Part shown: one piece after another, positions 10,111 to 49,537 of the stretch
Layout: every line of letters starts with the position of its first letter
Numbering within the stretch: position 1 is the first letter of the stretch
Source: Chitinophagaceae bacterium
GTDB lineage: Bacteria > Bacteroidota > Bacteroidia > Chitinophagales > Chitinophagaceae
Reading direction: 5' to 3'
Assembly (NCBI GenBank): GCA_026415715.1
Contig: JAOAGO010000006.1
Span: 28,789 to 92,788, forward strand
DNA: 64,000 bases
Made by a program: the position numbers and the translations under genes
The notes under the pieces: generated by a model
Told to the model about the DNA's origin: nothing
Database searches by the model: none
Seen by the model: only the letters and a program-made list of their open reading frames with translations

Positions 10111-10968
10111 ATGAATGAAGAACTGTTTTTAAACCGGTTTATTGAAAATGCTCTGCAGGAAGATATCGGCGACGGGGATCATTCCACGCTGTGCTGTATC
10201 AGTCCGGATGCCAGAGGAAAAGCCGTTTTGTACTTAAAACAGGAAGGAGTTTTGGCCGGTATGCGTATTGCAGAAAAGATTTTCAGATACCGTGAGCCCG
10301 ATGCGTTGTTTACGGCTTTTAAGAAAGACGGCGATGCCATTCAAAAAGGGGAAAAAGCGTTTCAAGTAGAGGCCAGAATTTACACCATACTTTCCTGCGA
10401 ACGATTGGTGCTGAATTGCATGCAACGCATGAGCGGCATTGCCACCCTGACCCGTCAATATGCCAATAAACTGAAAGGCTACAAAACCCGCTTGCTGGAC
10501 ACACGCAAAACAACTCCGAATTTTCGCTTACTTGAGAAAGAAGCCGTGCAGATTGGCGGGGGGTATAATCATCGTTTTGGTCTTTATGACATGATTTTGT
10601 TAAAGGACAATCATATTGATTTTTGCGGAGGTATAGATAAAGCCATTGAAAAAGCCTGGGCTTATGTACAAACCGTAAAACCGGAACTGAAAATAGAAGT
10701 GGAAACCCGTAATCTGGAAGAGGTGACAAAAGTAATGGAAGCCGGGCGGGGCAAAGTGTTTCGCATCATGCTGGATAATTTTTCGCCTGCTCAATTAAAA
10801 GAAGCCGTAGAACTGATTGGCGAAGAGTTTGAAACCGAAGCCAGTGGCGGCATTCATTTAGACAATATTGAACTGTATGCGCAAACCGGGGTGGATTACA
10901 TCAGCGTAGGCGCTCTGATACATCAGGCAAAAAGTTTAGATATGAGCCTGAAGGCATTTTTTGATTAA
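10111..10968 (+). CDS. nadC: Nicotinate-nucleotide pyrophosphorylase (carboxylating)
   Basis: This 285-residue quinolinate phosphoribosyltransferase makes nicotinate mononucleotide, CO2 and PPi from quinolinate and PRPP in de novo NAD synthesis. It shows the N-terminal ALQEDIGDGDHST, the LVLNCMQRMSGIATLT helix, the active-site DTRKTTPNFRLLEKEAVQIG and the LYDMILLKDNHI strand. The C-terminal EASGGIHLDNIELYAQTGVD forms the phosphate-binding end of the barrel. The stop codon lies 10 bp before the ATG of the SUI1-family gene. nadA and nadB are not in the window. Confidence 0.97.
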   Translation: MNEELFLNRFIENALQEDIGDGDHSTLCCISPDARGKAVLYLKQEGVLAGMRIAEKIFRYREPDALFTAFKKDGDAIQKGEKAFQVEARIYTILSCERLVLNCMQRMSGIATLTRQYANKLKGYKTRLLDTRKTTPNFRLLEKEAVQIGGGYNHRFGLYDMILLKDNHIDFCGGIDKAIEKAWAYVQTVKPELKIEVETRNLEEVTKVMEAGRGKVFRIMLDNFSPAQLKEAVELIGEEFETEASGGIHLDNIELYAQTGVDYISVGALIHQAKSLDMSLKAFFD

Positions 10969-28474: not shown

Positions 28475-30208
28475 ATGAAAAAAAATATGATAAATATTCA
28501 GCCGGCTATACTTTATGCTGCATTATTATTTACAGCTTGTAAAACTTCCCGTCATTCTTCTTTGTCTTCTTCCGTTAATCCGTATCAATACTCCATACAA
28601 AAAAAAGTAGTTGCTGAAAACGGCGCTGTGGTTTCAGCCCATCCTCTTGCCAGCCAGGTGGGTGTTGAAATTCTGAAAAAAGGAGGAAATGCCATTGATG
28701 CCGCTATTGCCACTCAATTGGCCTTAGCGGTTGTATATCCGAATGCCGGAAACATCGGCGGAGGGGGGTTTATGGTAGCCCGGCTGGCCAATGGCGAATT
28801 GCTGGCATTAGATTATCGTGAAAAAGCCCCCGGGGCGGCACATCGCGATATGTATCTTGACCCGGACGGCACACCCCGAACCGATAAAAGCCGCGACGGA
28901 CATCTTTCGGCCGGTGTTCCGGGCACGGTAGCCGGCCTGTTTGCGGCACATCGTTACGGCAAACTGCCGTTTCGGGAACTCATTGAACCCGCCATTCAAC
29001 TGGCCGAGAAAGGATTTGCCATTACAGAAAATGAAGCCGGCGCATTAAACCGCCTTCAGGATGATTTAAGAAAGTTTAATACAATTCCACCGGTTTTTAT
29101 AAAATCTCAATGGAAACCTGGCGACACTTTGATTCAGAAAGACCTTGCCAGAACCCTGATGAGAATAAGAGATAACGGTTTAGCCGGATTTTATGAAGGT
29201 GAAACGGCGCGACTTATCGTAGAGGAAATGCAAAGGGGTGGAGGTATTATTACGTACGAAGACCTTAAAAACTATAAGGCCGTGTACCGTAAGCCTCATG
29301 TCTTTACATACAAGGGTTATGACATTGTAAGCATGCCTATGCCCAGCAGCGGCGGTGTGCTGCTGAATCAGATGATGAAAATGATTGAAGATAAAAATAT
29401 TGCGGCCATGGGATTTCAAACGACACAAAGCGTTCAGCTCATGATTGAAGTAAAACGCAGGGCCTTTGCCGACAGAGCAAAATATATGGGCGACCCTGAT
29501 TTTTACAAAGTGCCGGTTGAACAATTGTGCAGCCCATCATATCTGAAGGAAAGGATGCGAGATTATTCACCCGATAAAGCCACACCCAGCAGCGAAGTCA
29601 AAGCCGGGATCATTGCGGGTTATGAGAGTGAAGAAACAACCCACCTCAGTGTAATTGATAAATACGGAAATGCGGTAGCAGTAACCACTACGCTGAACAA
29701 TTCGTACGGAAGCAGAACGGTAGTAGGCCATGCCGGATTTTTCTTGAATGATGAGATGGATGATTTCAGTATTAAGCCCGGTGTACCTAACATGTTCGGT
29801 GCGGTTGGCGGTGAAGCCAATGCCATACAACCCGGCAAACGCATGTTAAGTTCAATGACGCCTACGATTGTGTTAAAAGACAAAAAGCCTTTTTTGGTTT
29901 TAGGCACCCCGGGTGGCACTACAATTCCGACTCAGATTTTCCAAACCCTTGTAAATATTCTGGAATTTAATATGAGTACGGAGGATGCCGTATATAAACC
30001 TAAGTTTCATCATCAGTGGCTTCCCGATGAAGTGTATCTGGAAAGAGGATTTCCCGAAGAAGTGAAAAAAAACCTGGAAAAGATGGGATATCGGTTTGGC
30101 AGGGAACGTTTCGGTATTGGCCGTACGGAAATAATTAAAGTGTTGGCGGACGGAAAATTTGAAGCGGTGGCCGATATCCGCGGCGATGATGATGCCCGCG
30201 GCTATTAA
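28475..30208 (+). CDS. ggt: Gamma-glutamyltransferase, predicted lipoprotein
   Basis: This 577-residue member of the Ntn-hydrolase GGT family begins with a likely lipoprotein signal (LYAALLFTACKTS). The precursor shows HPLASQVGVEILKKGGNAID, and IGGGGFMVARL. The predicted autocleavage site lies before catalytic Thr389 in ETTHLSVIDKYGNAVA, followed by NNSYGS and MLSSMTPTIVLKD. It transfers or hydrolyses gamma-glutamyl groups of glutathione and related peptides in the periplasm or at the surface. It is transcribed divergently from the M14 peptidase gene and lies 0.8 kb from the GCS2/ATP-grasp genes. Confidence 0.95.
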   Translation: MKKNMINIQPAILYAALLFTACKTSRHSSLSSSVNPYQYSIQKKVVAENGAVVSAHPLASQVGVEILKKGGNAIDAAIATQLALAVVYPNAGNIGGGGFMVARLANGELLALDYREKAPGAAHRDMYLDPDGTPRTDKSRDGHLSAGVPGTVAGLFAAHRYGKLPFRELIEPAIQLAEKGFAITENEAGALNRLQDDLRKFNTIPPVFIKSQWKPGDTLIQKDLARTLMRIRDNGLAGFYEGETARLIVEEMQRGGGIITYEDLKNYKAVYRKPHVFTYKGYDIVSMPMPSSGGVLLNQMMKMIEDKNIAAMGFQTTQSVQLMIEVKRRAFADRAKYMGDPDFYKVPVEQLCSPSYLKERMRDYSPDKATPSSEVKAGIIAGYESEETTHLSVIDKYGNAVAVTTTLNNSYGSRTVVGHAGFFLNDEMDDFSIKPGVPNMFGAVGGEANAIQPGKRMLSSMTPTIVLKDKKPFLVLGTPGGTTIPTQIFQTLVNILEFNMSTEDAVYKPKFHHQWLPDEVYLERGFPEEVKKNLEKMGYRFGRERFGIGRTEIIKVLADGKFEAVADIRGDDDARGY

Positions 30209-30360: not shown

Positions 30361-31059
30361 ATGAAAAAAACATATACAATTATCGCGGCGTTGATAAGTC
30401 TGAATTTGGTTCATGCACAGGAAAAGCTGGCTTTTATTGCCGGCCCACAGATAACCAATGCATATTATTATATACCTCAGCCCAATCTGGGAAAAGCAAA
30501 GCAGGAAACATCCATGAAATATGGATTTCAGGCCGGGATGAACGGCAAATTTTCCTTGGAAGGAAGATTTTATTTCGTACCGGCTGCTTTTTACAGTTTG
30601 AAAGGATTCAAGGTTACTTTAACTAAACCATCTTATCCGCCGGATTCTGCTGCGATAGATAATGATGTCATGGTTCATACGTTTGAACTGGCACCGATGT
30701 TTCAGTTGAATTTCAGCAATAAGCCTGCACATTTTTTTTTCCGCATAGGTCCATCCATTGATGTTCAGATTACAGGAAGAGAACGCTTTCATCTGTCAGG
30801 GGGCGGAAGCGTGAGCCGAAAAATGAAGTTCAGTTTTGCGGACTACGGGTATGCGGGCGCCAATATTCTGTTGCATCTGGGTTATAAAACAAAAAGCGGA
30901 TTTATTGTCTACGCGCATTATACGCATGGTGTGGGCAGTATTGTAAACACCGATGGCGGGCCAAAAATATTTCACAGAGCCGCTGGCATTTCATTAGGTA
31001 AATTTTTTACTTCCCGAAAAGAAGAGGATGTTATACGCCGGATAAGAACTGGCTATTGA
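30361..31059 (+). CDS. Outer-membrane beta-barrel (porin-family) protein
   Basis: This 232-residue protein has a signal peptide (MKKTYTIIAALISLNLVHAQ) and a series of amphipathic beta strands typical of the small PorT/OMP_b-brl class (GRFYFVPAAFYSLKGFKVTL; AHFFFRIGPSIDVQI; FIVYAHYTHGVGSI). An eight-stranded outer-membrane barrel is predicted. Its 3' end overlaps the convergent GCS2-type gene by 29 bp, which is tight but compatible with both being genuine. Confidence 0.82.
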   Translation: MKKTYTIIAALISLNLVHAQEKLAFIAGPQITNAYYYIPQPNLGKAKQETSMKYGFQAGMNGKFSLEGRFYFVPAAFYSLKGFKVTLTKPSYPPDSAAIDNDVMVHTFELAPMFQLNFSNKPAHFFFRIGPSIDVQITGRERFHLSGGGSVSRKMKFSFADYGYAGANILLHLGYKTKSGFIVYAHYTHGVGSIVNTDGGPKIFHRAAGISLGKFFTSRKEEDVIRRIRTGY

Positions 31060-32140
31060 TATATTTTGCCACTTCTTTCAAATCATTTGTTTGCTCATAT
31101 ACTTTCAGCTGCCTGTCAGCCCCCGTGCCTTCCTCCAGGATTTTATGTACATAAGCAATCCGATGCCGGCTACCAAGATGATCAAGCACAGGGTCAACAA
31201 AATCCAGCAGTTCGTAAATTAAAGCACGGGTGTTTACTTCTTCTTCTTTGCCGAAATCAATCAGATAACCGTCTATTCCATATCGGCTGGCCCTCCATTT
31301 GTTTTCATTAATTAACGCTCTGGAATACTGAATGAAGTTCAGGTTTTTTGAACGTAACATGTAAATACGAGCGCAGATGGCCTGAAACAAAGCGGCCATG
31401 GCAATGGTTTCGTTCACGGTTAACGGAATATCGCAAATTCTGAACTCTACCGTATTAAAAAAAGGATGCACCCTGAGATCCCACCATATTTTTTTGGCAT
31501 TATCAATACAATTGGTTTTAATCAGAAGTTTTACATAATTATCGTAGGCTTCGATACTGTCGAAGGAATCGGGGATGCCGGTGCGGGGAAATTTGTCGAA
31601 TACTTTTGTACGAAAAGATTTATATCCGGTCATCCGTCCTTCCCAAAAAGGAGAATTCGTACTTAATGCAAAGATGTGCGGAAGAAAATAGCGGGTGCTG
31701 TTGGCAATATGATTAGCCATTATCCGGCTTTCCATGCCCACATGCACATGCAAACCGAAAATAAGATTACTCCGCGCAGCCTCCTGCAATTCATTTACAA
31801 TTTCATTATAGCGGGCATGATCGGTAATAAGCTGGCTTTGCCAATGGCTGAAGGGATGTGTTCCGGAAGCTCCCATTTTAAAACCCAGTTCATCAGCAAT
31901 ACCTGAAATAATTTTTCGCAGTGTGGCAACATCCTGCCATGCCTGATCAATATCGTTGCAAATATCGGTGCCGACCTCTACCACCGCCTGATGCATTTCG
32001 GCTTTCACCTTGTCTTTAATTACTTTCTGGCCTTCCTGAACGATCCTTTGCTGATGACTTTTCAGCTCATAGGTTTGCGGATCCATTACCATATACTCTT
32101 CTTCTACCCCAAGCGTAAAGGTTTTATAGTTCAGATGCAT
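31031..32140 (-). CDS. GCS2-type carboxylate-amine ligase (YbdK-like)
   Basis: The start MHLNYKTFTLGVEEEYMVMD at 32140 is chosen because the upstream part of the ORF would overlap the ATP-grasp gene. The product has 369 residues. It carries GVEEEY, the HxHVGxExRI region (FGLHVHVGMESRIMANHIAN), and a WWDLRVHPFFNTVEFRICD strand, all typical of glutamate-cysteine-ligase family 2. Members join a carboxylate to an amine using ATP, but most YbdK-like proteins have only weak or unknown activity. The gene starts 11 bp after the ATP-grasp stop, so the two ligases are co-transcribed. Its 3' end overlaps the convergent porin gene. Confidence 0.9.
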   Translation of the reverse strand: MHLNYKTFTLGVEEEYMVMDPQTYELKSHQQRIVQEGQKVIKDKVKAEMHQAVVEVGTDICNDIDQAWQDVATLRKIISGIADELGFKMGASGTHPFSHWQSQLITDHARYNEIVNELQEAARSNLIFGLHVHVGMESRIMANHIANSTRYFLPHIFALSTNSPFWEGRMTGYKSFRTKVFDKFPRTGIPDSFDSIEAYDNYVKLLIKTNCIDNAKKIWWDLRVHPFFNTVEFRICDIPLTVNETIAMAALFQAICARIYMLRSKNLNFIQYSRALINENKWRASRYGIDGYLIDFGKEEEVNTRALIYELLDFVDPVLDHLGSRHRIAYVHKILEEGTGADRQLKVYEQTNDLKEVAKYINSQFLSGV

Positions 32141-32151
32141 AAAGATGAATT

Positions 32152-33105
32152 TTATGATAATGGAATTTTTTCGCAACTTCTTTTTACGTACTCTCCCCAT
32201 GTCAGATTATCTTCTCCGTCTTTATGCTCCAAGGCTCTTACAATGGCATATTGTGCAGCGGTTTCAACTACCCATTCAAAATTTTCCTGTCCTACGCTGT
32301 GTATATCGGCATCGGGAGCGGGATTGCAGAAGTCTATAGCGTACGGAACACCATCCCGCACGGCTAATTCTACCGTATTAAAATCATATCCGAGATATTG
32401 ATTGATGCGAAGAACAATATCCGTCATTTGTTGCAACCGTTCCGGGGTGGGCCGAAAATCGGAAACATAGCGAAGATGATGAGGATTTCGGGGTTCATAG
32501 GGCATGATGCGCACATATTTCCGGCCAATGCAATAACAACGGTAATATTCGCTGAACACGATTTCTTCCTGTAAAAGCATTACCAGTTTACCGGTTTCGG
32601 AGTGCCGTTGAAAAAACTCCTCTGCATTTTTTAACTTATAAACATGTTTCCATCCGCCGCCGGCAAAGGGTTTCATATAGGCAGGAAATCCTACATAGTT
32701 AAAAATACCTTCCCAATCCAACGGATAAGCCAGATTTGTAAACGACTCGGCCGAAGTGTCATCCGGATGCTCCCGCGAAGGCAAAATAACCGTTCGGGGC
32801 ACAGGCACTCCGATTTTTGTCATCAAACAGTTATTAAAGTATTTATCATCGGCGCTCCACCAGAACGGATTATTGATGACTGCTGTTCCGGTCAAGGCCG
32901 CATTTTTGCGCCATGTTCTGTAAAAAGGCACATCCTGCGAAATACGGTCTATTATTACAGCATAGCCTGAAGCATCTCCCTGCACCGCTTTGTCTATCCG
33001 AACAGGTTCAGCTGTAATACCGGGTATTTGACGGCTGTTTATTCGTTCAATCAGCGCAAGCGGAAATGAACGTTCTTTTCCAAATAATATTCCTATCTTT
33101 TTCAT
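32152..33105 (-). CDS. ATP-grasp ligase, RimK/glutathione-synthase-like
   Basis: This 317-residue cytoplasmic protein has the ATP-grasp order: GVPVPRTVILPS before the ATP lid, Lys145 in GFPAYMKPFAGGGWKHVYKL, the LLQEEIVFSEYYRCYCIG strand, and Mg ligands Glu246, Asp258 and Asn261 in VELAVRDGVPYAIDFCNPAP. Such enzymes activate a carboxylate as an acyl phosphate and couple it to an amine or thiol. Substrates cannot be read from sequence. Together with the downstream GCS2-type ligase it forms a two-ligase unit, divergent from an esterase gene. Confidence 0.9.
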   Translation of the reverse strand: MKKIGILFGKERSFPLALIERINSRQIPGITAEPVRIDKAVQGDASGYAVIIDRISQDVPFYRTWRKNAALTGTAVINNPFWWSADDKYFNNCLMTKIGVPVPRTVILPSREHPDDTSAESFTNLAYPLDWEGIFNYVGFPAYMKPFAGGGWKHVYKLKNAEEFFQRHSETGKLVMLLQEEIVFSEYYRCYCIGRKYVRIMPYEPRNPHHLRYVSDFRPTPERLQQMTDIVLRINQYLGYDFNTVELAVRDGVPYAIDFCNPAPDADIHSVGQENFEWVVETAAQYAIVRALEHKDGEDNLTWGEYVKRSCEKIPLS

Positions 33106-33228
33106 ATAAAAAATTTAAGGAATAACGGAAGTCGATTCCGTTTCACCAAATATATTTTTTCAGATTCATATAAACAAAAAACTTTTCCATTCTATCGGGT
33201 ATAATATGCTGAAATCCGGAGTAACCTT

Positions 33229-33240
33229 TATTTTTGAAAA
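33229..33240 (+). promoter_or_regulatory. TAnnTTTG box directly before the esterase ATG
   Basis: TATTTTTG (33229-33236) fits the Bacteroidota -7 element and is followed by four A residues and the ATG at 33241. Transcription would start at or beside the start codon, giving a leaderless message. The divergent ATP-grasp gene starts 135 bp away. Confidence 0.45.
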
Positions 33241-34077
33241 ATGAGTAAAACGAATACAGGAAATATCCGCACTGAATATATTAAAATCTATTCCTCATTC
33301 CTGAAACGAATTGTGAAACTTGATTTTTACCTGCCGGCAGTTATGACGGATCATATTCCGAACAGCGTATTATTGATAAATGACGGACAGGATCTTGTTA
33401 AAATGCCTTTTGAAAAGATACTGAATTCTCTATACGAAGAAGATGTCATTAAACCGCTGTTGTGCTGCGGAATTCATGCCGGCCCGGAACGCAAGCAGGA
33501 ATATGGCACCAGCAGCACACCTGATTACAAAGGAAGGGGTGCCAAAGCACCTCTTTATACACGGTTTATTATTGATGAATTACTGCCTAAGATTAAATCC
33601 CGTTATGGCCATTACTATCTTTCAGATCATGGTTTCGCCGGTTTTTCACTGGGCGGTCTCAGCGCATTAGACATTGCATGGAATCATCCGGAAATTTTTT
33701 CCAAAGTGGGCGTTTTTTCCGGTTCTCTGTGGTGGAGGTCGGTGAACCAGCATGATCCGGCATACCGCGATGAACAACACCGAATCATGCACCAGATTAT
33801 CCGAAATTCAGAAAAAAAACCAAATCTTAAATTCTTTTTTCAATGCGGACAATTAGACGAAACAGAAGACCGAAACGGAAATGGCATAATTGATTCCATT
33901 GATGATACACTGGATTTGATTCGGGAACTTGAAGCCAAAGGCTATCTCCGAAATAAAGACATTCATTATTTAGAGCTGGAAAACGGACGGCATGATGTGG
34001 AAACCTGGGCTCTGGCTTTTCCTTATTTTTTAAAATGGGGGTGGAAGAAAGAGAAAGAAAAAAAAGCTGTGTCCTGA
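33241..34077 (+). CDS. Esterase D/enterochelin-esterase-like alpha/beta hydrolase
   Basis: This 278-residue protein has no signal peptide. It contains the nucleophile elbow GFAGFSLGGLSALD (Ser136), a preceding LYTRFIIDELLPKIKSRYG helix and a late ENGRHDVETWALAFPYFLKW with the probable catalytic His. These match the putative-esterase family PF00756. It is transcribed divergently from the ATP-grasp/GCS2 pair, from a 135-bp shared control region. Hydrolysis of an ester or thioester product of the amidoligases is inferred from this arrangement. Conversely, it could simply be an independent esterase. Confidence 0.88.
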   Translation: MSKTNTGNIRTEYIKIYSSFLKRIVKLDFYLPAVMTDHIPNSVLLINDGQDLVKMPFEKILNSLYEEDVIKPLLCCGIHAGPERKQEYGTSSTPDYKGRGAKAPLYTRFIIDELLPKIKSRYGHYYLSDHGFAGFSLGGLSALDIAWNHPEIFSKVGVFSGSLWWRSVNQHDPAYRDEQHRIMHQIIRNSEKKPNLKFFFQCGQLDETEDRNGNGIIDSIDDTLDLIRELEAKGYLRNKDIHYLELENGRHDVETWALAFPYFLKWGWKKEKEKKAVS

Positions 34078-34136: not shown

Positions 34137-37100
34137 TCAGTTATTAAATATATAGCGTAATCCTAACTGGATGGCATACGTAGATGCCGTGCTCACCACA
34201 TCGCGGAATGTAGTAGTTATAATCTGACCTCTGTCTGTAGCCAATCGGAACTGAGGCACTACCGTTCCGCCCGGAACCAGCGCATTTTGGTTTGTAGGTA
34301 TCAGAATGGAGGAGGCATTAACGGCTTTCACTTTACCCCAGGAAGGATTAATTAAATTCCCTACATTAAAAATATCTACCGAAAACTGGAGTGTATTGCG
34401 GTATTTACCGGTTTTTACAAATAAATCCTGAAGGATTTTCACATCCATCTGATTTCTCCAGGGACCCAGCGCACCGTTCCGCTCGGCATATTGCCCACGG
34501 CGGGAACGCAGGTATTTATCCTGTTGAATATATTGCTCAAACAGAGCCCGCTGGGCAGCCTGGTCATAAGTAACCCCATTTACGGTTTGCGTTGCAAACT
34601 GCATTTGCTGCACCTGAGCGGCTGTGGGAATGTAAATCAGATCGTTACCATTAATTCCGTCTCTGTTGAAATCAGCTCCATACACATAAGAAAACCGGAA
34701 ATCCTGCCCGCCCTGATAGAATATGGAAATGGTGGTAGCAAACCGTTTCAGGTATTCTTTACGGTAAGATAATGTGGCCACATATCTGTCGGGAATAACA
34801 TAAGAAGCATGCGACAATGCCGGCACATTCAATGAAAACACTTGCGGAGTATTCTGATAAGTACCCAGGGGTTGATCACCACTTCCGTCGTGCAAATTGG
34901 CAGCTATGGATTTGGTATAAGCAACAGATCCGGCAAATCCTTTCGTCAGAGGTTTTTCAAATTTAATCATTAAAGAAGCATAAAAACCCCGTGAACGGTC
35001 GAGATTATCCAGAATAACCGGAGTAAACGGCGCTGTTCCACCCGGCGTAGGCACCCCTGCCGTATTCAGCGTATTGATAAACCGGGTGGGAACGGTTGTG
35101 CCAAACATGGGACGATTATCGGGATATCCTGCTACGTTGAGCGGTGTAGGTTTTTGATAATTCGGACTTCTGAAAAATACCGTTTTCAGGTCTTTGTTAA
35201 AGATGCCCTCCAACGTACCGATTATTCCGCCGGGCAACCGGGTATCTATTGCCAGTGTGGATTTCCAGGTTTGCGGATTTTTGAAATCTTCATCCAGCGC
35301 AGTAACTGAAGAAGGAACAATGGTACCGGCCTGCGGAACAGTGGAAGGCCTGTATGCGGTAGGGTTTGGATTGAATGGACCCGGCGTATTTGCCTGCCCG
35401 TTGAATGCCTGCGTAATCTGTATCATTCCATTGTCGCCCGACTGACTGACAATCCATACAAACGGAACGCGACCGGTAAAAATTCCGGTTCCGCCACGAA
35501 TCTGAAGGGTTCTGTTTCCATATAAATCCCAGTTAAACCCAAGTCGTGGCGACCACATAATTTGTACTTTCGGTAGATTTCCGGTATTAATTTTTTCCCC
35601 GTCTTCAAATGTCATGGCAGCCACCAAAGGATGGGTGATGATCTGAGGCACATCAGGATAAGTAGGTAAGTCTAAACGTAATCCCAGCGTCAATCTGAAA
35701 TTTCTTGTTATGGCAATTTCATCCTGTCCATATAGAGAATATTGTACAAATTTGAAACCCGAAAGCGCCGGGGCAAAGTTTTTTTGTAATGAATAGGTAA
35801 TGGCAAAGTGTTCAGGTTTAGCTCTTAATGCGGGATTCGGATTTAAGGCGCTGGCAAAATCAGCCCATGAATTGAAGACATAATAACTGGTGGCAAAACG
35901 CTGAAATCCGTTAACTGTTTCGCTTAATTCATATTGTCCGCCAACAGTCCAGTTATGTTTATTTTTTGTCCAGGTAAAATTGTTCACTACAGAATAAAGT
36001 TTTACTTTCCGGATGTTTCCGAAAGTAAAGGGTTCATATCCGAAAGTTGTATAAGGAACCGGTTGAGGATATCCTGTGGAACTTAAAATATCTACCAGCG
36101 GAAACACCTGACTTTCGGATGACCGGGAGTCATTCTGGAATGTGTAGGTAGCGCGGAAAACATTTGCCACCTTACCCCAGTTGGAATTCAGCTCGGCTGC
36201 GAAAGAATAGAAATTTGCTCCCTGAAAATAGTTAGAGTTTTTAAACCATAAAGCATTAATGTTCGTCCGGCCTGTTCCGGTAGGATAATTGAAGCCGGCC
36301 CCGCCGGTTGAAGAACTCAGCGGAAAAGGTTCCTGACCTTCTACCTGGCTGTATCGTAACACCAGATGATGGTGATTATTAATGTTCCAGTCTAATCGTC
36401 CCAAAATGCGTTTTCTTTCAATATTGGGAATATAACCCTGAAAAGGACCAGTTACATAACCATAATTCTGCAACAGATAGTTGCTGATAAAGGTCAGGGA
36501 ATCAGCAGTGGGCCGGGCAACATTTGGTGCGCTTCCGAAAGGGGCTGACGGGGTGGCAGCCACGTTGGGTTGAATATTTTTGGGCTGTTGTTCAGATTCG
36601 TAGTTGACGAAGAAGAAAAGCTTATTCCGGATAATGGGGCCTCCGATACGCACTCCCCACTGTTCAAATTCTTCTTTAGGCCTTTCAAATTTGGTTTCTT
36701 CTACTTTATCACCCCTGAATTTTTCGTTACGGAAATAGCGATATACCGAACCCGAAAAGTCGTTTGTACCCGAGCGGGTAACCGCATTAATAGCGCTGCC
36801 GATAAATCCCGACTGTCGTACATCATAGGGTGAGATGTTAACTGAAATTTCCGCCACGGCGTCTAATGAAATCGGCGTACCTCCGGCTGGAAGATTAGGC
36901 CCTATACCAAAGCTGTTATTAAAATCTGCTCCGTCTATTGTAAAATTATTTTGTCTGAAGTTTCCCCCGCCGATGGAAGGCCCGTTAGCCTGAGGGGTTA
37001 AACGGGTGATTTCATTGAGGCTTCGGGCGATGGTTGGCAACTGGGTAATCTGACGCAATCCCACATTTGTAACGGAGCCGGTACGGTTTCGGTTAATAAT

Positions 37101-37481
37101 CTGATTGCGCCCTGCTGCCGTAACCACAACGGTTTCCAGCGTAGTTTCTGATTTTTTCAGGTTTGAATTTAATATGAAAGTTTCGGCAAGCGGAAGGTAA
37201 ATGTCTTCCAGACGGTCTTTTTCATATCCTATAAAAGTAACTTCAATAACATAAGGTCCGCCGGCCCTTAGATTTTCCATTCGGATGGCTCCTCCGGCCT
37301 GCGATACGGTGGTGTATTTTGTACCGGTAGGAATGTGCGTTGCAACAACAGTAGCGCCTACCAAAGGTTCGTCGTTCGTACTTTTTATGAATCCCACAAT
37401 GGTTGCGGTAGTAATCTGAGCATTTACCAAACCATTGACCAACAAGGTCAAACAAAGCAACAAGTAAATTCTCTTAAGCAT
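34137..37481 (-). CDS. TonB-dependent receptor, Oar-like, with carboxypeptidase-like N-domain
   Basis: This 1114-residue outer-membrane protein has a signal peptide (MLKRIYLLLCLTLLVNGLVN). A CarboxypepD_reg-like domain (about 23-110; ATIVGFIKSTNDEPLVGATV) is followed by a plug (RTGSVTNVGLRQITQLPTIA; IDGADFNNSFGIG) and a large barrel. This is the Oar-type branch, with ISPYDVRQSGFIGSAINAVT. Oar proteins in Myxococcus and Bacteroidota have been linked to protein export or substrate uptake. No SusD partner is adjacent, which separates it from the SusC at 49.8 kb. Confidence 0.92.
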   Translation of the reverse strand: MLKRIYLLLCLTLLVNGLVNAQITTATIVGFIKSTNDEPLVGATVVATHIPTGTKYTTVSQAGGAIRMENLRAGGPYVIEVTFIGYEKDRLEDIYLPLAETFILNSNLKKSETTLETVVVTAAGRNQIINRNRTGSVTNVGLRQITQLPTIARSLNEITRLTPQANGPSIGGGNFRQNNFTIDGADFNNSFGIGPNLPAGGTPISLDAVAEISVNISPYDVRQSGFIGSAINAVTRSGTNDFSGSVYRYFRNEKFRGDKVEETKFERPKEEFEQWGVRIGGPIIRNKLFFFVNYESEQQPKNIQPNVAATPSAPFGSAPNVARPTADSLTFISNYLLQNYGYVTGPFQGYIPNIERKRILGRLDWNINNHHHLVLRYSQVEGQEPFPLSSSTGGAGFNYPTGTGRTNINALWFKNSNYFQGANFYSFAAELNSNWGKVANVFRATYTFQNDSRSSESQVFPLVDILSSTGYPQPVPYTTFGYEPFTFGNIRKVKLYSVVNNFTWTKNKHNWTVGGQYELSETVNGFQRFATSYYVFNSWADFASALNPNPALRAKPEHFAITYSLQKNFAPALSGFKFVQYSLYGQDEIAITRNFRLTLGLRLDLPTYPDVPQIITHPLVAAMTFEDGEKINTGNLPKVQIMWSPRLGFNWDLYGNRTLQIRGGTGIFTGRVPFVWIVSQSGDNGMIQITQAFNGQANTPGPFNPNPTAYRPSTVPQAGTIVPSSVTALDEDFKNPQTWKSTLAIDTRLPGGIIGTLEGIFNKDLKTVFFRSPNYQKPTPLNVAGYPDNRPMFGTTVPTRFINTLNTAGVPTPGGTAPFTPVILDNLDRSRGFYASLMIKFEKPLTKGFAGSVAYTKSIAANLHDGSGDQPLGTYQNTPQVFSLNVPALSHASYVIPDRYVATLSYRKEYLKRFATTISIFYQGGQDFRFSYVYGADFNRDGINGNDLIYIPTAAQVQQMQFATQTVNGVTYDQAAQRALFEQYIQQDKYLRSRRGQYAERNGALGPWRNQMDVKILQDLFVKTGKYRNTLQFSVDIFNVGNLINPSWGKVKAVNASSILIPTNQNALVPGGTVVPQFRLATDRGQIITTTFRDVVSTASTYAIQLGLRYIFNN

Positions 37482-43887: not shown

Positions 43888-44937
43888 ATGAAAAGAATTT
43901 TTCTCTTTACGTTACTGATTCATTTTAACAAAACCTTTTGTCAGTCGTTGCAAACCCCGAAACTGCAGGAGAAATTTGTTTTGGTTGTGCATGGCGGTGC
44001 AGGCACCTTGCTCAAATCGCAGATGACGCCGGAAAAAGAAAAAGCATATACCGACGCACTGGATGAAGCGCTGATGGCAGGTTATGAAATTCTGAAAGCC
44101 GGAGGAACGGCGCTAGATGCCGTAGAAGCCTGTGTGAAAATTCTGGAAGACAATCCGCTGTTTAATGCCGGAAAAGGCGCCGTGTTCACCAACGACGGCA
44201 GAAATGAACTGGATGCTTCCATTATGGACGGCAAAAGCCGGAAGGCCGGTTCAGTAGCCGGTGTATCCCGCATCAAAAATCCTGTTACGGCAGCCCGTGC
44301 CGTGATGGAAAAAAGCCGACATGTTATGCTCATTGGCGGGGGCGCAGAATCTTTTGCCCGCCTGCAGGGACTGGAAATGGTTGACCCCTCTTATTTTTAC
44401 ACCGAAAGCCGGTGGAAGAGCCTTCAGAAAATTAAGGCGCAGGACTCAGCCGCTCTTCAACTGGATCACAGCGATACTTCCGGTAAATCATCTGTTCAAG
44501 TATCAAATATTGAAAATGAAAAACACGGAACCGTGGGCGCAGTCGCATTAGACCGGCATGGAAATCTGGCCGCGGCCACAAGTACGGGCGGCATGACAAA
44601 TAAACGATTCGGAAGAGTTGGCGATTCGCCAGTTATCGGCGCCGGTACTTATGCCGACAACAATACCGCTGCAATCAGTTGCACGGGCTGGGGCGAATAC
44701 TTTATTCGACTTGTGTTGGCCAAAACCGTGTGCGACATGATGGAATATGGCAAAATGAGCCTGAAAAAAGCGGCCGACATCATGATTAAGCAAAAACTTC
44801 CGGCGCTGGGAGGCGACGGCGGATTGATTGCCGTGGACAAACACGGTAATATCGCCATGCCTTTTTGTACCGAAGGCATGTACCGCGGGTACATTTTACA
44901 TACCGGAAAAAAAGTAATTAAAATCTATAAAGACTGA
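43888..44937 (+). CDS. Isoaspartyl peptidase / plant-type L-asparaginase, predicted secreted
   Basis: This 349-residue Ntn-hydrolase has a short signal-like N-terminus (MKRIFLFTLLIHFNKTFCQ). It shows VVHGGAGT at the start of the domain, NPLFNAGKGAVFTNDGRNEL, an autocleavage site before catalytic Thr215 in KHGTVGAVALDRHGNLAAAT, and SPVIGAGTYADN with GWGEYFIRLV. It cleaves isoaspartyl dipeptides and asparagine after self-processing into alpha and beta subunits. It is placed near gamma-glutamyltransferase and ligase genes but is not in their operon. Confidence 0.94.
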   Translation: MKRIFLFTLLIHFNKTFCQSLQTPKLQEKFVLVVHGGAGTLLKSQMTPEKEKAYTDALDEALMAGYEILKAGGTALDAVEACVKILEDNPLFNAGKGAVFTNDGRNELDASIMDGKSRKAGSVAGVSRIKNPVTAARAVMEKSRHVMLIGGGAESFARLQGLEMVDPSYFYTESRWKSLQKIKAQDSAALQLDHSDTSGKSSVQVSNIENEKHGTVGAVALDRHGNLAAATSTGGMTNKRFGRVGDSPVIGAGTYADNNTAAISCTGWGEYFIRLVLAKTVCDMMEYGKMSLKKAADIMIKQKLPALGGDGGLIAVDKHGNIAMPFCTEGMYRGYILHTGKKVIKIYKD

Positions 44938-45690: not shown

Positions 45691-47370
45691 ATGTTTTTGC
45701 TAAAAATTCTCTCAACTCCCTGTTTCCGGAATTTAATTATCATCATTTCCGGCTTATTGCTATGCTTTTCATGCAGGCTAAAAAACAGAAAAAAAACAGC
45801 CGACCTGCTGGTGTATAACGCCACAATATATACTATGGATACGGCATTTTCCACCTGCAATGCCATGTTGATTGATGAGGGAAAGATTCTGGCAACAGGA
45901 AATGCCGACTCGTTGCTGAAAGAATACGACTGTAAAGAGAAACTGGATGCCGGCGGCCGGTTCATCTATCCGGGTTTTATTGATGCCCATGCGCATTTTG
46001 TAGGCTATGCAAACAGTTTACTTACCGTAAACCTTACCGGAACGCAAAGCTGGGAAGAGGTGTTGCAACGTACGCAGGACTATGCCCGGCAGCATCCAAA
46101 CGGATGGATTACCGGCCGCGGATGGGATCAGAATGATTGGCGCACCAAACAATTTCCCGATAACAAAAAGCTGAACGAATTATTTCCCGACAGGCCCGTG
46201 CTGCTGACCCGGGTTGACGGACATGCGGCCATCGCCAATCGTAAGGCATTGGAACTGGCCGGATTGAAGCCCGGCGATAAAACGGAAGGCGGAGAAATTG
46301 AAACATCCGGCGGACAACTGACCGGCATTCTGATTGATAACGCAATAAGTCTTGTCCGTTCCAAAATTCCCCCGCCCGATGAGTCAACCCTGCTGGAAGC
46401 ATTGCGCAGAGCAGAGCAAAACTGTTTTGCCGAAGGGCTGACTACCATAGATGATTGCGGACTGCATTATACTCAAGTGGAACGATTGAAAAACTGGCAG
46501 GATAACGGAAAGCTGAAAATCAGACTCTATGTTATGCTCAGCGATGATTCGTCAAATTTTGCCTATGCCCAAAAAAAAGGAATCATGAAAACGGAAAGAA
46601 TGCATGTACGCAGCTTTAAAATATATAGTGACGGAGCACTGGGTTCACGCGGCGCCTGCCTGCTGCAACCTTATCATGACAAACCGGGCCATTACGGGTT
46701 TTTGCTGAGCCCTGCTTCTCATTTTGACTCTGTAGCACGGATACTTTATGAAAAAGGTTGGCAAATGTGCACACATGCCATCGGCGACAGCGGTAACCGG
46801 ACTATTCTGAATATTTACGGCAAATATCTTCGGGAAAAAAATGACCGGCGCTGGCGCATTGAACATGCACAGGTAGTGCATCCGGACGATTTTCATTTAT
46901 TTGGACGATTCTCCATTATTCCATCCGTTCAGCCCACCCATGCCACTTCGGATATGTACTGGGCCGGTCAGCGTCTGGGAAAAAAAAGAGAAAAATTTGC
47001 GTATGCTTATCACGATTTACTGAAACAAAACGGTTGGTTGCCCTTAGGAACTGATTTTCCCGTAGAAGATATTTCACCTTTAAAAACATTTTATTCTGCC
47101 GTATTTCGTATGGACGCAAAAGGATATCCTGCCGGCGGATATCAAACAGAAAATGCACTTAGCCGAAAAGAAGCGTTGTACGGTATGACGCTTTGGGCAG
47201 CCCGCGCCAATTTTGAAGAATTGGAAAAAGGCAGCCTGGAAAAAGGGAAATGGGCCGATTTTGTTATTCTTGACAAAGACCTCATGCATGCTCCGCAAAA
47301 CGAAATATGGCAGACAAAAGTTTGGATGACCTTTCTGGGAGGTGAAAAAGTGTATTCCGCGAAACAATAA
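45691..47370 (+). CDS. Amidohydrolase-3 family (YtcJ-like) lipoprotein
   Basis: This 559-residue protein has a lipobox (IIIISGLLLCFSCRLKN). It shows the composite beta sandwich start LLVYNATIYTMDTAFSTCNA, then GRFIYPGFIDAHAHFVGY (metal HxH), WITGRGWDQNDW, the KIYSDGALGSRGACLLQPY segment, CTHAIGDSGNRTILN and a late LPLGTDFPVEDISP. This is the YtcJ-type amidohydrolase 3 branch, whose substrates are mostly unknown amides. Its stop is only three bases from that of the convergent GH130-like gene. Confidence 0.9.
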   Translation: MFLLKILSTPCFRNLIIIISGLLLCFSCRLKNRKKTADLLVYNATIYTMDTAFSTCNAMLIDEGKILATGNADSLLKEYDCKEKLDAGGRFIYPGFIDAHAHFVGYANSLLTVNLTGTQSWEEVLQRTQDYARQHPNGWITGRGWDQNDWRTKQFPDNKKLNELFPDRPVLLTRVDGHAAIANRKALELAGLKPGDKTEGGEIETSGGQLTGILIDNAISLVRSKIPPPDESTLLEALRRAEQNCFAEGLTTIDDCGLHYTQVERLKNWQDNGKLKIRLYVMLSDDSSNFAYAQKKGIMKTERMHVRSFKIYSDGALGSRGACLLQPYHDKPGHYGFLLSPASHFDSVARILYEKGWQMCTHAIGDSGNRTILNIYGKYLREKNDRRWRIEHAQVVHPDDFHLFGRFSIIPSVQPTHATSDMYWAGQRLGKKREKFAYAYHDLLKQNGWLPLGTDFPVEDISPLKTFYSAVFRMDAKGYPAGGYQTENALSRKEALYGMTLWAARANFEELEKGSLEKGKWADFVILDKDLMHAPQNEIWQTKVWMTFLGGEKVYSAKQ

Positions 47371-48561: not shown

Positions 48562-48682
48562 GTTAGGTTTACGATAGAAACTTTTTGGCTAGAGTGAATG
48601 TTATTCTTTTGATAAAAAAACAAAAATTTTAATTTATTTCCAATCTGTGAATTTTTTTAAAATGACGAAACATAAAAACATT

Positions 48683-48694
48683 TATGTTTGCCCC
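48683..48694 (+). promoter_or_regulatory. TAnnTTTG box three bases before the amidotransferase ATG
   Basis: TATGTTTGC (48683-48691) matches the Bacteroidota -7 consensus, with only three bases before the ATG at 48695. Transcription would begin at the start codon, which argues for MNGFESRK as the true N-terminus rather than the upstream in-frame codons used in the track. Confidence 0.55.
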
Positions 48695-49537
48695 ATGAAT
48701 GGTTTTGAAAGTCGCAAATTGCGGATAGCTGTTTTAGATCTCTACCAGGGCGAACCGAATGAAGGCATGCGGGGTATTCGCACATTGCTGCATGACTGGT
48801 CGTCTCAAAAGGGAATTGAACTGTATGCCGAAGAATTTGATGTTCGCTTAAAAAACGAATTACCGGATCTATCATTCGATATCTATATCTCCAGTGGCGG
48901 GCCGGGCAGCCCGCTGAGTACACGTTATGACGACTGGGACATAGCCTGGTGCCGGTGGTTGAATGAAGTGGAGCGCTGGAACGCCAACCCTTCAAATTAT
49001 CAGAAAAAACATGTGTTTTTCATTTGCCATTCATTTCAATTGGCTTGCCGATATTTTGATGCCGGTATAGTATGCAAACGCAAATCCACTGCTTTCGGCA
49101 TCTTTCCCGTTCATATGCTGGAAGATGCTTTTGATGACCCTGTTCTTGCCGGTTTGTCTGATCCCTTTTATGCTGTGGACAGCCGTGACTTTCAGGTTAT
49201 TCAACCTAACCATGCACGTCTTCGTCAAATGGGTGGCAAAGTTTTATGCATTGAAAAAATCCGGCCGCATGTGCCCCTGGAAAGAGCCGTTATGGCCATC
49301 CGTTTTAACGACTACATGATTGGAACACAATTTCATCCGGAAGCCGATGTGGAAGGTATGCGAAGGTATCTCGTTACCGAAGAAAAAAGAAAAACCGTAA
49401 TAGAAAATCACGGCATCGAAAAACTGCAAAACATGCTTGACCATCTGGAAGACCCTGACAAAATCATGTGGACCTATTCGCATGTCATTCCAAACTTTCT
49501 CAACTCTGCCATACAGATAGAGGAAATGGTATCTTAA
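48695..49537 (+). CDS. Class I (type 1) glutamine amidotransferase-like protein
   Basis: With the start at 48695 the protein has 280 residues. It shows ISSGGPGSPLSTRYDDW, the nucleophile Cys111 in VFFICHSFQLACRYF, and the His-Glu pair in GTQFHPEAD (His214, Glu216), which are the catalytic triad elements of class I GATases. The C-terminal helices (VIENHGIEKLQNMLDHLEDP) are less typical. It is not next to a classical synthase partner (CarB, GuaA, TrpE), so it may supply ammonia to, or hydrolyse, a gamma-glutamyl compound. In my recollection, similar proteins occur beside GCS2/ATP-grasp ligases in this phylum; here they are 15 kb apart. Confidence 0.84.
   Translation: MNGFESRKLRIAVLDLYQGEPNEGMRGIRTLLHDWSSQKGIELYAEEFDVRLKNELPDLSFDIYISSGGPGSPLSTRYDDWDIAWCRWLNEVERWNANPSNYQKKHVFFICHSFQLACRYFDAGIVCKRKSTAFGIFPVHMLEDAFDDPVLAGLSDPFYAVDSRDFQVIQPNHARLRQMGGKVLCIEKIRPHVPLERAVMAIRFNDYMIGTQFHPEADVEGMRRYLVTEEKRKTVIENHGIEKLQNMLDHLEDPDKIMWTYSHVIPNFLNSAIQIEEMVS

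Follow-up and report, generated by a model that had tools for sequence, protein, structure and literature searches.

The window analysed here is the whole stretch of 64,000 nucleotides taken from a Chitinophagaceae bacterium (contig JAOAGO010000006.1 of assembly GCA_026415715.1); the source genome, an assembly of 96 contigs, is labelled G000. The window contains two carboxylate-amine ligase genes, which we call c0 and c1, and a divergent esterase gene, c5:

31031..32140, minus strand: c1, GCS2/YbdK-family carboxylate-amine ligase, 369 amino acids (aa), assigned by Pfam, NCBIfam, PDB match and motifs
32152..33105, minus strand: c0, ATP-grasp ligase of an unnamed family with a predicted RimK/LysX/ArgX fold, 317 aa, assigned by predicted fold and residues
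33106..33240, no strand: divergent control region of 135 base pairs (bp) between c0 and c5
33241..34077, plus strand: c5, alpha/beta-hydrolase esterase (PF00756), 278 aa, divergent from the ligases

All three genes have their catalytic residues intact. The original prediction placed an ATP-grasp and a GCS2 ligase 11 bp apart with an esterase sharing their control region, and the genes, the gap and the divergent 135-bp region are all found. The 11-bp gap is obtained when c1 starts at the ATG at 32140; the frame is open further to an in-frame ATG at 32200, a start which would overlap the upstream gene. The intergenic region has one TAnnTTTG site per strand (33229-33236 on the plus strand, 33154-33147 on the minus strand), a sequence which we take to be the -7-like promoter motif of Bacteroidota. 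For 68 related intergenic regions the counts were 21 in the c0 direction and 33 in the c5 direction, versus 5.0 and 8.4 in base-shuffled sequence. This apparent enrichment of the shared region on both strands is suggestive, because the shuffles preserve nothing but base composition.

A scan placed the nearest relatives in Chitinophagaceae, and conservation was scored in 80 related loci of this family, 74 of which were scorable for the esterase side and 75 for the GCS2 side. In 71 of the 74, c5 lies next to c0 and divergent from it (median gap 131 bp), and a GCS2 gene lies downstream of c0 in 74 of the 75 (median gap 46.5 bp). The trio layout is conserved far beyond chance, and the neighbourhood check set beforehand, co-occurrence of the three genes in relatives, came out in favour of the prediction. 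Its central claim, an amidoligase unit of unrelated ligases with an esterase, also holds: the GCS2 and ATP-grasp folds are distinct, the esterase is divergent and the linkage is conserved. The trio is carried by the cultured species Niabella aurantiaca, Flavihumibacter petaseus and Sediminibacterium ginsengisoli, and a plasmid search gave no copy on plasmids.

The two ligases and the esterase

c1 scores 199.5 bits against Pfam GCS2 PF04107 (cut-off 21), 288.6 bits against TIGR02050 for the YbdK family (cut-off 176.4) and 515.7 bits against NF010039, the PRK13515 equivalog for a carboxylate-amine ligase (cut-off 371); it matches E. coli YbdK (PDB 1r8g) with E=1.3e-50. The motifs LGVEEEY, HVHVG and EFRICD are invariant among 18 relatives, and c1 is the sole GCS2 protein in the source genome. 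It is under every glutamate-cysteine ligase equivalog cut-off, for the glutathione and the ergothioneine pathway alike (NF010043, 332 vs 409; TIGR02048, 67 vs 249; TIGR03444, 13 vs 371).

The sequence of c0 has no Pfam match and gave no match in a search against solved structures. RimK/LysX matches are weak and sub-threshold, with 26.8 bits against the RimK family TIGR00768 (cut-off 143.4), and a sub-threshold RimK-family match is seen in 26 of 28 relatives. Since a profile search brought nothing past weak biotin-carboxylase/Ddl matches, the fold comparison alone was informative. An AlphaFold (AF2) model built on the 28 relatives (pLDDT 92) gave a Foldseek match to ArgX at 9.6e-14, and ArgX, LysX, RimK and Ddl structures were all found at E about 1e-13. 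The residues K88, K145, R189, E246, D258 and N261 are kept in 26-28 of the 28 relatives. The ATP-grasp template comprises a linker Lys, a strand-2 Lys, an acidic strand-4 residue, an ExN motif and the Arg of the peptide-ligase assemblage (PMC4431377). In c0 the linker Lys is K88, the strand-2 Lys K145 and the strand-4 acid E246, and R189 is present, while the ExN position is occupied by DxxN (D258 and N261, in 27 of 28 relatives). A shift of the asparagine position in ATP-grasp has been called unusual, an example being ExGD in R2K.3 (PMC4431377).

The modelled fold supports a place for c0 within the ATP-grasp superfamily, and judged by predicted fold it would work as a RimK-type ligase. It should not be filed under RimK, because it misses the TIGR00768 cut-off. 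Nor does it belong to the R2K clade, where the linker Lys is absent and a second Lys/Arg in the RAGNYA loop is found instead: c0 retains the linker Lys (K88 in 26 of 28) and is therefore not R2K, and it scores 15.9 against PF18299 (cut-off 26.2). Four relatives (L053, L057, L058 and L071) have lysine/alanine-rich, probably disordered C-terminal tails on c0; the window copy has none.

c5 scores 85.5 bits against PF00756, its Ser136-Asp206-His251 triad is invariant among 18 relatives, and it has no obvious signal peptide. In the phylum sample 15 of 18 close c5 homologues adjoin c0 and face the opposite direction; in some genomes, e.g. G178, G037 and G190, c5 lies elsewhere.

The larger cassette in Bacteroidota

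The genes of 40 neighbourhoods spread over Bacteroidota were clustered, and a recurring order was found: c5 divergent, then c4, c0, c1, c3 and c2 on one strand. Here c2 is a third ligase seen in relatives, c3 a protein like class-I glutamine amidotransferases (GATase), and c4 a second alpha/beta hydrolase. In many Bacteroidota the trio comes with further genes, six in all at most. To call it a two-ligase unit, as was done originally, is thus incomplete, because the third ATP-grasp ligase, the GATase-like protein and the second hydrolase co-occur and cluster with both ligases phylum-wide. In F. petaseus the GATase and the third ligase are contiguous with the trio.

c2 is about 396 aa long and belongs to no curated family. 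Its AlphaFold model (pLDDT 88) matches eukaryotic glutathione synthetase, GspS and YgiC/YjfC with E 9e-15 to 1e-11, and also homoglutathione synthetase and the E-64 ligase Cp1B; the best match is yeast glutathione synthase with bound gamma-glutamylcysteine. None of the GSP_synth or eukaryotic glutathione synthetase cut-offs is passed; PF03738 is weak, in 3 of 20 members, with a best E of 5e-5. The catalytic candidates D95, E112, K299 and R351 are invariant. Homology between c0 and c2 was not supported by hhalign. c3 has the nucleophile Cys and the His-x-Glu of class-I GATase (C131, H234 and E236, invariant in 18 relatives) and reaches 24.8 bits against PF00117 (cut-off 22.8). c4 is of the PF00756 type, with S118, D189 and H219 invariant.

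Co-occurrence was analysed by Fisher tests in 198 Bacteroidota genomes (102 genera, 39 families). c0 is found in 72 genomes, c1 in 62, c2 in 59 and c3 in 50; 58 genomes share c0 and c1, 57 c0 and c2, 55 c1 and c2, and 49 c0 and c3. Per genome c0 accompanies c2 in 57 of 59 (p=6e-33), a type of value which is inflated by the kinship of the genomes, so that the genus- and family-collapsed values are fairer. At the genus level the pairs are c0-c2 in 46/46 (p=4.5e-20), c1-c2 in 43/46 (p=1.7e-21) and c0-c1 in 44/46 (p=6.9e-16). At the family level the ligase pairs associate with p from 5e-4 to 4e-7, and an association of c1 with c3 is absent (p=0.19). The control ligase family, PF02955, shows no association with c0 (odds ratio 1.15, p=0.66). 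Wherever they lie close together, c0, c1, c2 and c3 share one strand without exception, with c5 on the other, and c1 is downstream of c0 in every case (38/38, 13 families). c0 and c1 lie apart in 20 genomes, 16 of which have c2, therefore the association is more than hitch-hiking.

Variants of the cassette exist, with changes at the position of c1 or c2 in loci without one of them. A circularly permuted ATP-grasp gene lies between c0 and c3 in two loci (L080:8643-10058, L081:5629-7053), with an esterase beside it, and L080 additionally has an ATP-grasp_4 protein. This appears to be a non-orthologous replacement of ligases in another clade. The theme recurring across the variants is ligases and hydrolases. 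The permuted protein was tried as a homologue of c2, which was unsupported (hhalign probability 3.8%). An M29-type aminopeptidase gene lies between c1 and c2 in two lineages (L064:9296-10324, L079:5348-6367).

Dispersed members and neighbours in the source genome

Outside the trio the window contains one more cassette member and several neighbours:

28475-30208, plus strand: gamma-glutamyltranspeptidase with a lipoprotein-like start, two genes and 0.8 kb from the GCS2 gene
34137-37481, minus strand: large outer-membrane TonB-type protein (TonB-dependent receptor), with a homologue adjoining the esterase gene in 44 of the 80 Chitinophagaceae loci
43888-44937, plus strand: secreted-looking Asparaginase_2/isoaspartyl-peptidase-type protein (PF01112, 403.6 bits), between a TamB-like gene and the amidohydrolase
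45691..47370, plus strand: amidohydrolase (PF07969, 291.9 bits), accompanying c3 in part of Chitinophagaceae
48647..49537, plus strand: c3, class-I glutamine-amidotransferase-like, 296 aa, dispersed cassette member (family profile E=1.3e-123)

The c3 of the window has the motifs ICHSFQ and QFHPEAD. In relatives c3 lies within the operon, between c1 and c2; same-genus relatives have the amidohydrolase between c1 and c3, and in L092 and L117, for example, the order is c1-amidohydrolase-c3-c2. The window c3 adjoins this amidohydrolase and therefore the operon was split by rearrangement. Whether the amidohydrolase (homologue in 7 of 80 loci) is a cassette member is uncertain. The c4-like match in the source genome is a distant paralogue elsewhere (G000:C22:16867-17589), and a weak tblastn trace of c2 at window positions 10228-10497 (E=4e-5) was dismissed as antisense in nadC.

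In reporting no glutathione genes close by, the original prediction missed the gamma-glutamyltranspeptidase at 0.8 kb. This gene is a neighbour in only 1 of 80 loci and was dropped as a cassette partner. The TonB-dependent receptor was left out of the cassette as a very common kind of protein; its position could be a coincidence, or it could serve uptake or export of the product.

Possible products and known systems

We lean towards the view that the trio is what is left locally of a phylum-wide cassette of Bacteroidota, which would assemble a small molecule with amide links in the cytosol, at the expense of ATP and without ribosomes. Gene content, linkage, co-occurrence, predicted folds and intact catalytic residues come directly from the analysis, and from these we infer that the genes act in one pathway and form amide bonds. 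As a rule, linked ligases that differ in fold perform successive ligations (PMC4431377), and among the fold relatives of c2 YgiC/YjfC have been described as peptidyl-polyamine synthetases and Cp1B as a pseudodipeptide ligase (PMC12568646); because of this rule and these activities a short amide-linked, possibly gamma-glutamyl product is favoured. The GCS2 and glutathione-synthetase-like folds make a gamma-glutamyl-like product plausible, the latter fold being a predicted one.

In the scheme which we propose the substrates, the order of the steps and the roles of c3, c4 and c5 are guesses. c1 would activate a side-chain or gamma carboxylate, most likely that of glutamate, and join it to an amine. 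c2, being glutathione-synthetase/YgiC-like, might lengthen the carboxyl end by an amino acid or amine, and c0, being RimK/ArgX-like, might form a further amide bond. c3 could supply ammonia, or hydrolyse a glutaminyl or gamma-glutamyl bond. c4 and c5 could take an ester or amide off an intermediate, or recycle the product. The original idea that the product is later hydrolysed by c5 is a guess, and action on an intermediate is equally possible.

A more far-reaching proposal, about which we are rather doubtful, is that ligases of three fold classes (GCS2, DxxN RimK-like ATP-grasp and glutathione-synthetase-like ATP-grasp) form a phylum-wide unrecognised pathway to a gamma-glutamyl-type metabolite or cofactor, in which the GCS2/glutathione-synthetase pair has been swapped for the permuted ATP-grasp in another clade. 

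Roughly one in three of the Bacteroidota genomes sampled has the core ligases, two of the families (c0 and c2) being under all Pfam cut-offs, and a conserved, vertically kept three-ligase set points to a metabolite of general role.

Several points weigh against an assembly cassette as described. c2 was not detected in the 96-contig assembly of the source genome, therefore the product of the local set may be shorter, or the set may be in decay; in a search of relatives c2 was present in 12/12 other same-genus genomes having c0, and its absence here is either a loss or an assembly gap. Co-occurrence is weaker at the family level (p 4e-7 to 0.19), and the kinship of the genomes makes the tests non-independent. 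Whole clades retain c0-c1-c2 without c3 and c5, which are therefore not essential to the core. Finally, the sampling was restricted to Bacteroidota.

The cassette could instead make glutathione, or a glutathione-like thiol, in a non-canonical way, c1 serving as glutamate-cysteine ligase and c2 as glutathione synthetase of the eukaryotic type. YbdK, with which c1 shares a family, is a weak glutamate-cysteine ligase; the top fold match of c2 has gamma-glutamylcysteine bound, and c1 and c2 are found together in 43 of 46 genera. We consider this unlikely, as c1 misses all glutamate-cysteine ligase equivalog cut-offs, c2 has no eukaryotic glutathione synthase Pfam match and only a weak GSP_synth match in 3 of 20 members, neither c2 nor GshB was found in the source genome, and c0, c3, c4 and c5 would be left unexplained. 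The bacillithiol enzyme BshC is found in 196 of the 198 genomes, the source genome included, therefore a low-molecular-weight thiol is available anyway. GshB-type PF02955 had no match in the source genome or in any sampled Chitinophagaceae genome; with no GshB-like protein and c1 under the cut-offs, a standard glutathione pathway is not supported for these ligases; had they proved to be its enzymes, this would have spoken against the original prediction. In other members of the phylum c1 and c2 could still make a glutathione-like compound.

Alternatively the ligases might attach amino acids to a protein or peptide, in the way RimK modifies ribosomal protein S6, and the hydrolases would take them off again. 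RimK and ArgX/LysX, which c0 matches best in fold, act on protein- or carrier-bound carboxylates, a reversible tag would suit paired ligase and hydrolase genes, and such systems are among the predictions of Iyer et al. (2009, as cited in PMC4431377). However, the cassette has no conserved neighbour encoding a carrier or substrate protein, the clustering of the 40 neighbourhoods having given enzymes only. The characterised GCS2 and glutathione-synthetase-like enzymes are not known to act on anything other than small molecules, and tagging seems improbable. The product could also be a compatible solute or storage dipeptide like N-acetylglutaminylglutamine amide, with c3 giving the terminal amide: a GATase combined with an ATP-grasp ligase is the logic of that osmolyte, and the cassette is phylum-wide yet patchy as stress solutes are; but the cassette has no conserved acetyltransferase, c3 does not belong to the class-II GATases and no osmotic-stress link was seen, which leaves this quite improbable. 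That the trio genes are unrelated neighbours could be argued from the divergent transcription and from the genomes where the esterase sits elsewhere; this is already contradicted by the co-occurrence data, by the syntenic loci (71/74 and 74/75) and by the position of most close esterase homologues (15 of 18) beside c0 in opposite orientation, and has hardly any probability left.

The assembly of a small amide-linked molecule, which we prefer to these alternatives, can be compared with several known enzymes. Fes/IroE-type enterochelin esterases share the PF00756 fold and the Ser-Asp-His triad with c5, but c5 scores 38.7 bits against PRK10439 (cut-off 222) and the cassette is without siderophore genes. 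E. coli YbdK (PDB 1r8g) is, like c1, a YbdK-family GCS2 protein; c1 differs in being below the YbdK-type equivalog NF010040 (249.5 vs 425), yet above NF010039, and in always being paired with ATP-grasp ligases in this cassette. The RimK/LysX/ArgX ligases resemble c0 in the fold predicted for it and in the catalytic Lys, Arg and acidic residues, whereas c0 has DxxN and not ExN, is far below the RimK cut-off and is without a LysW- or S6-type partner. c2 resembles eukaryotic glutathione synthetase, GspS and YgiC/YjfC in predicted fold, at 12-17% identity and with no Pfam cut-off passed.

The original prediction knew of no characterised product for such a set, and our literature search likewise found no characterised cassette member or published product. 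As a kind of system amidoligase neighbourhoods are already known by prediction, from the work of Iyer, Abhiman, Burroughs and Aravind (2009, as cited in PMC4431377 and PMC8939145). Compared by way of these citing papers, the cassette differs from those neighbourhoods in that c0 and c2 are without a Pfam model passing its cut-off; it resembles them in having ligases of unrelated fold, ATP-grasp and COOH-NH2 (GCS2-type), beside hydrolases, an arrangement for which successive amide ligations were inferred.

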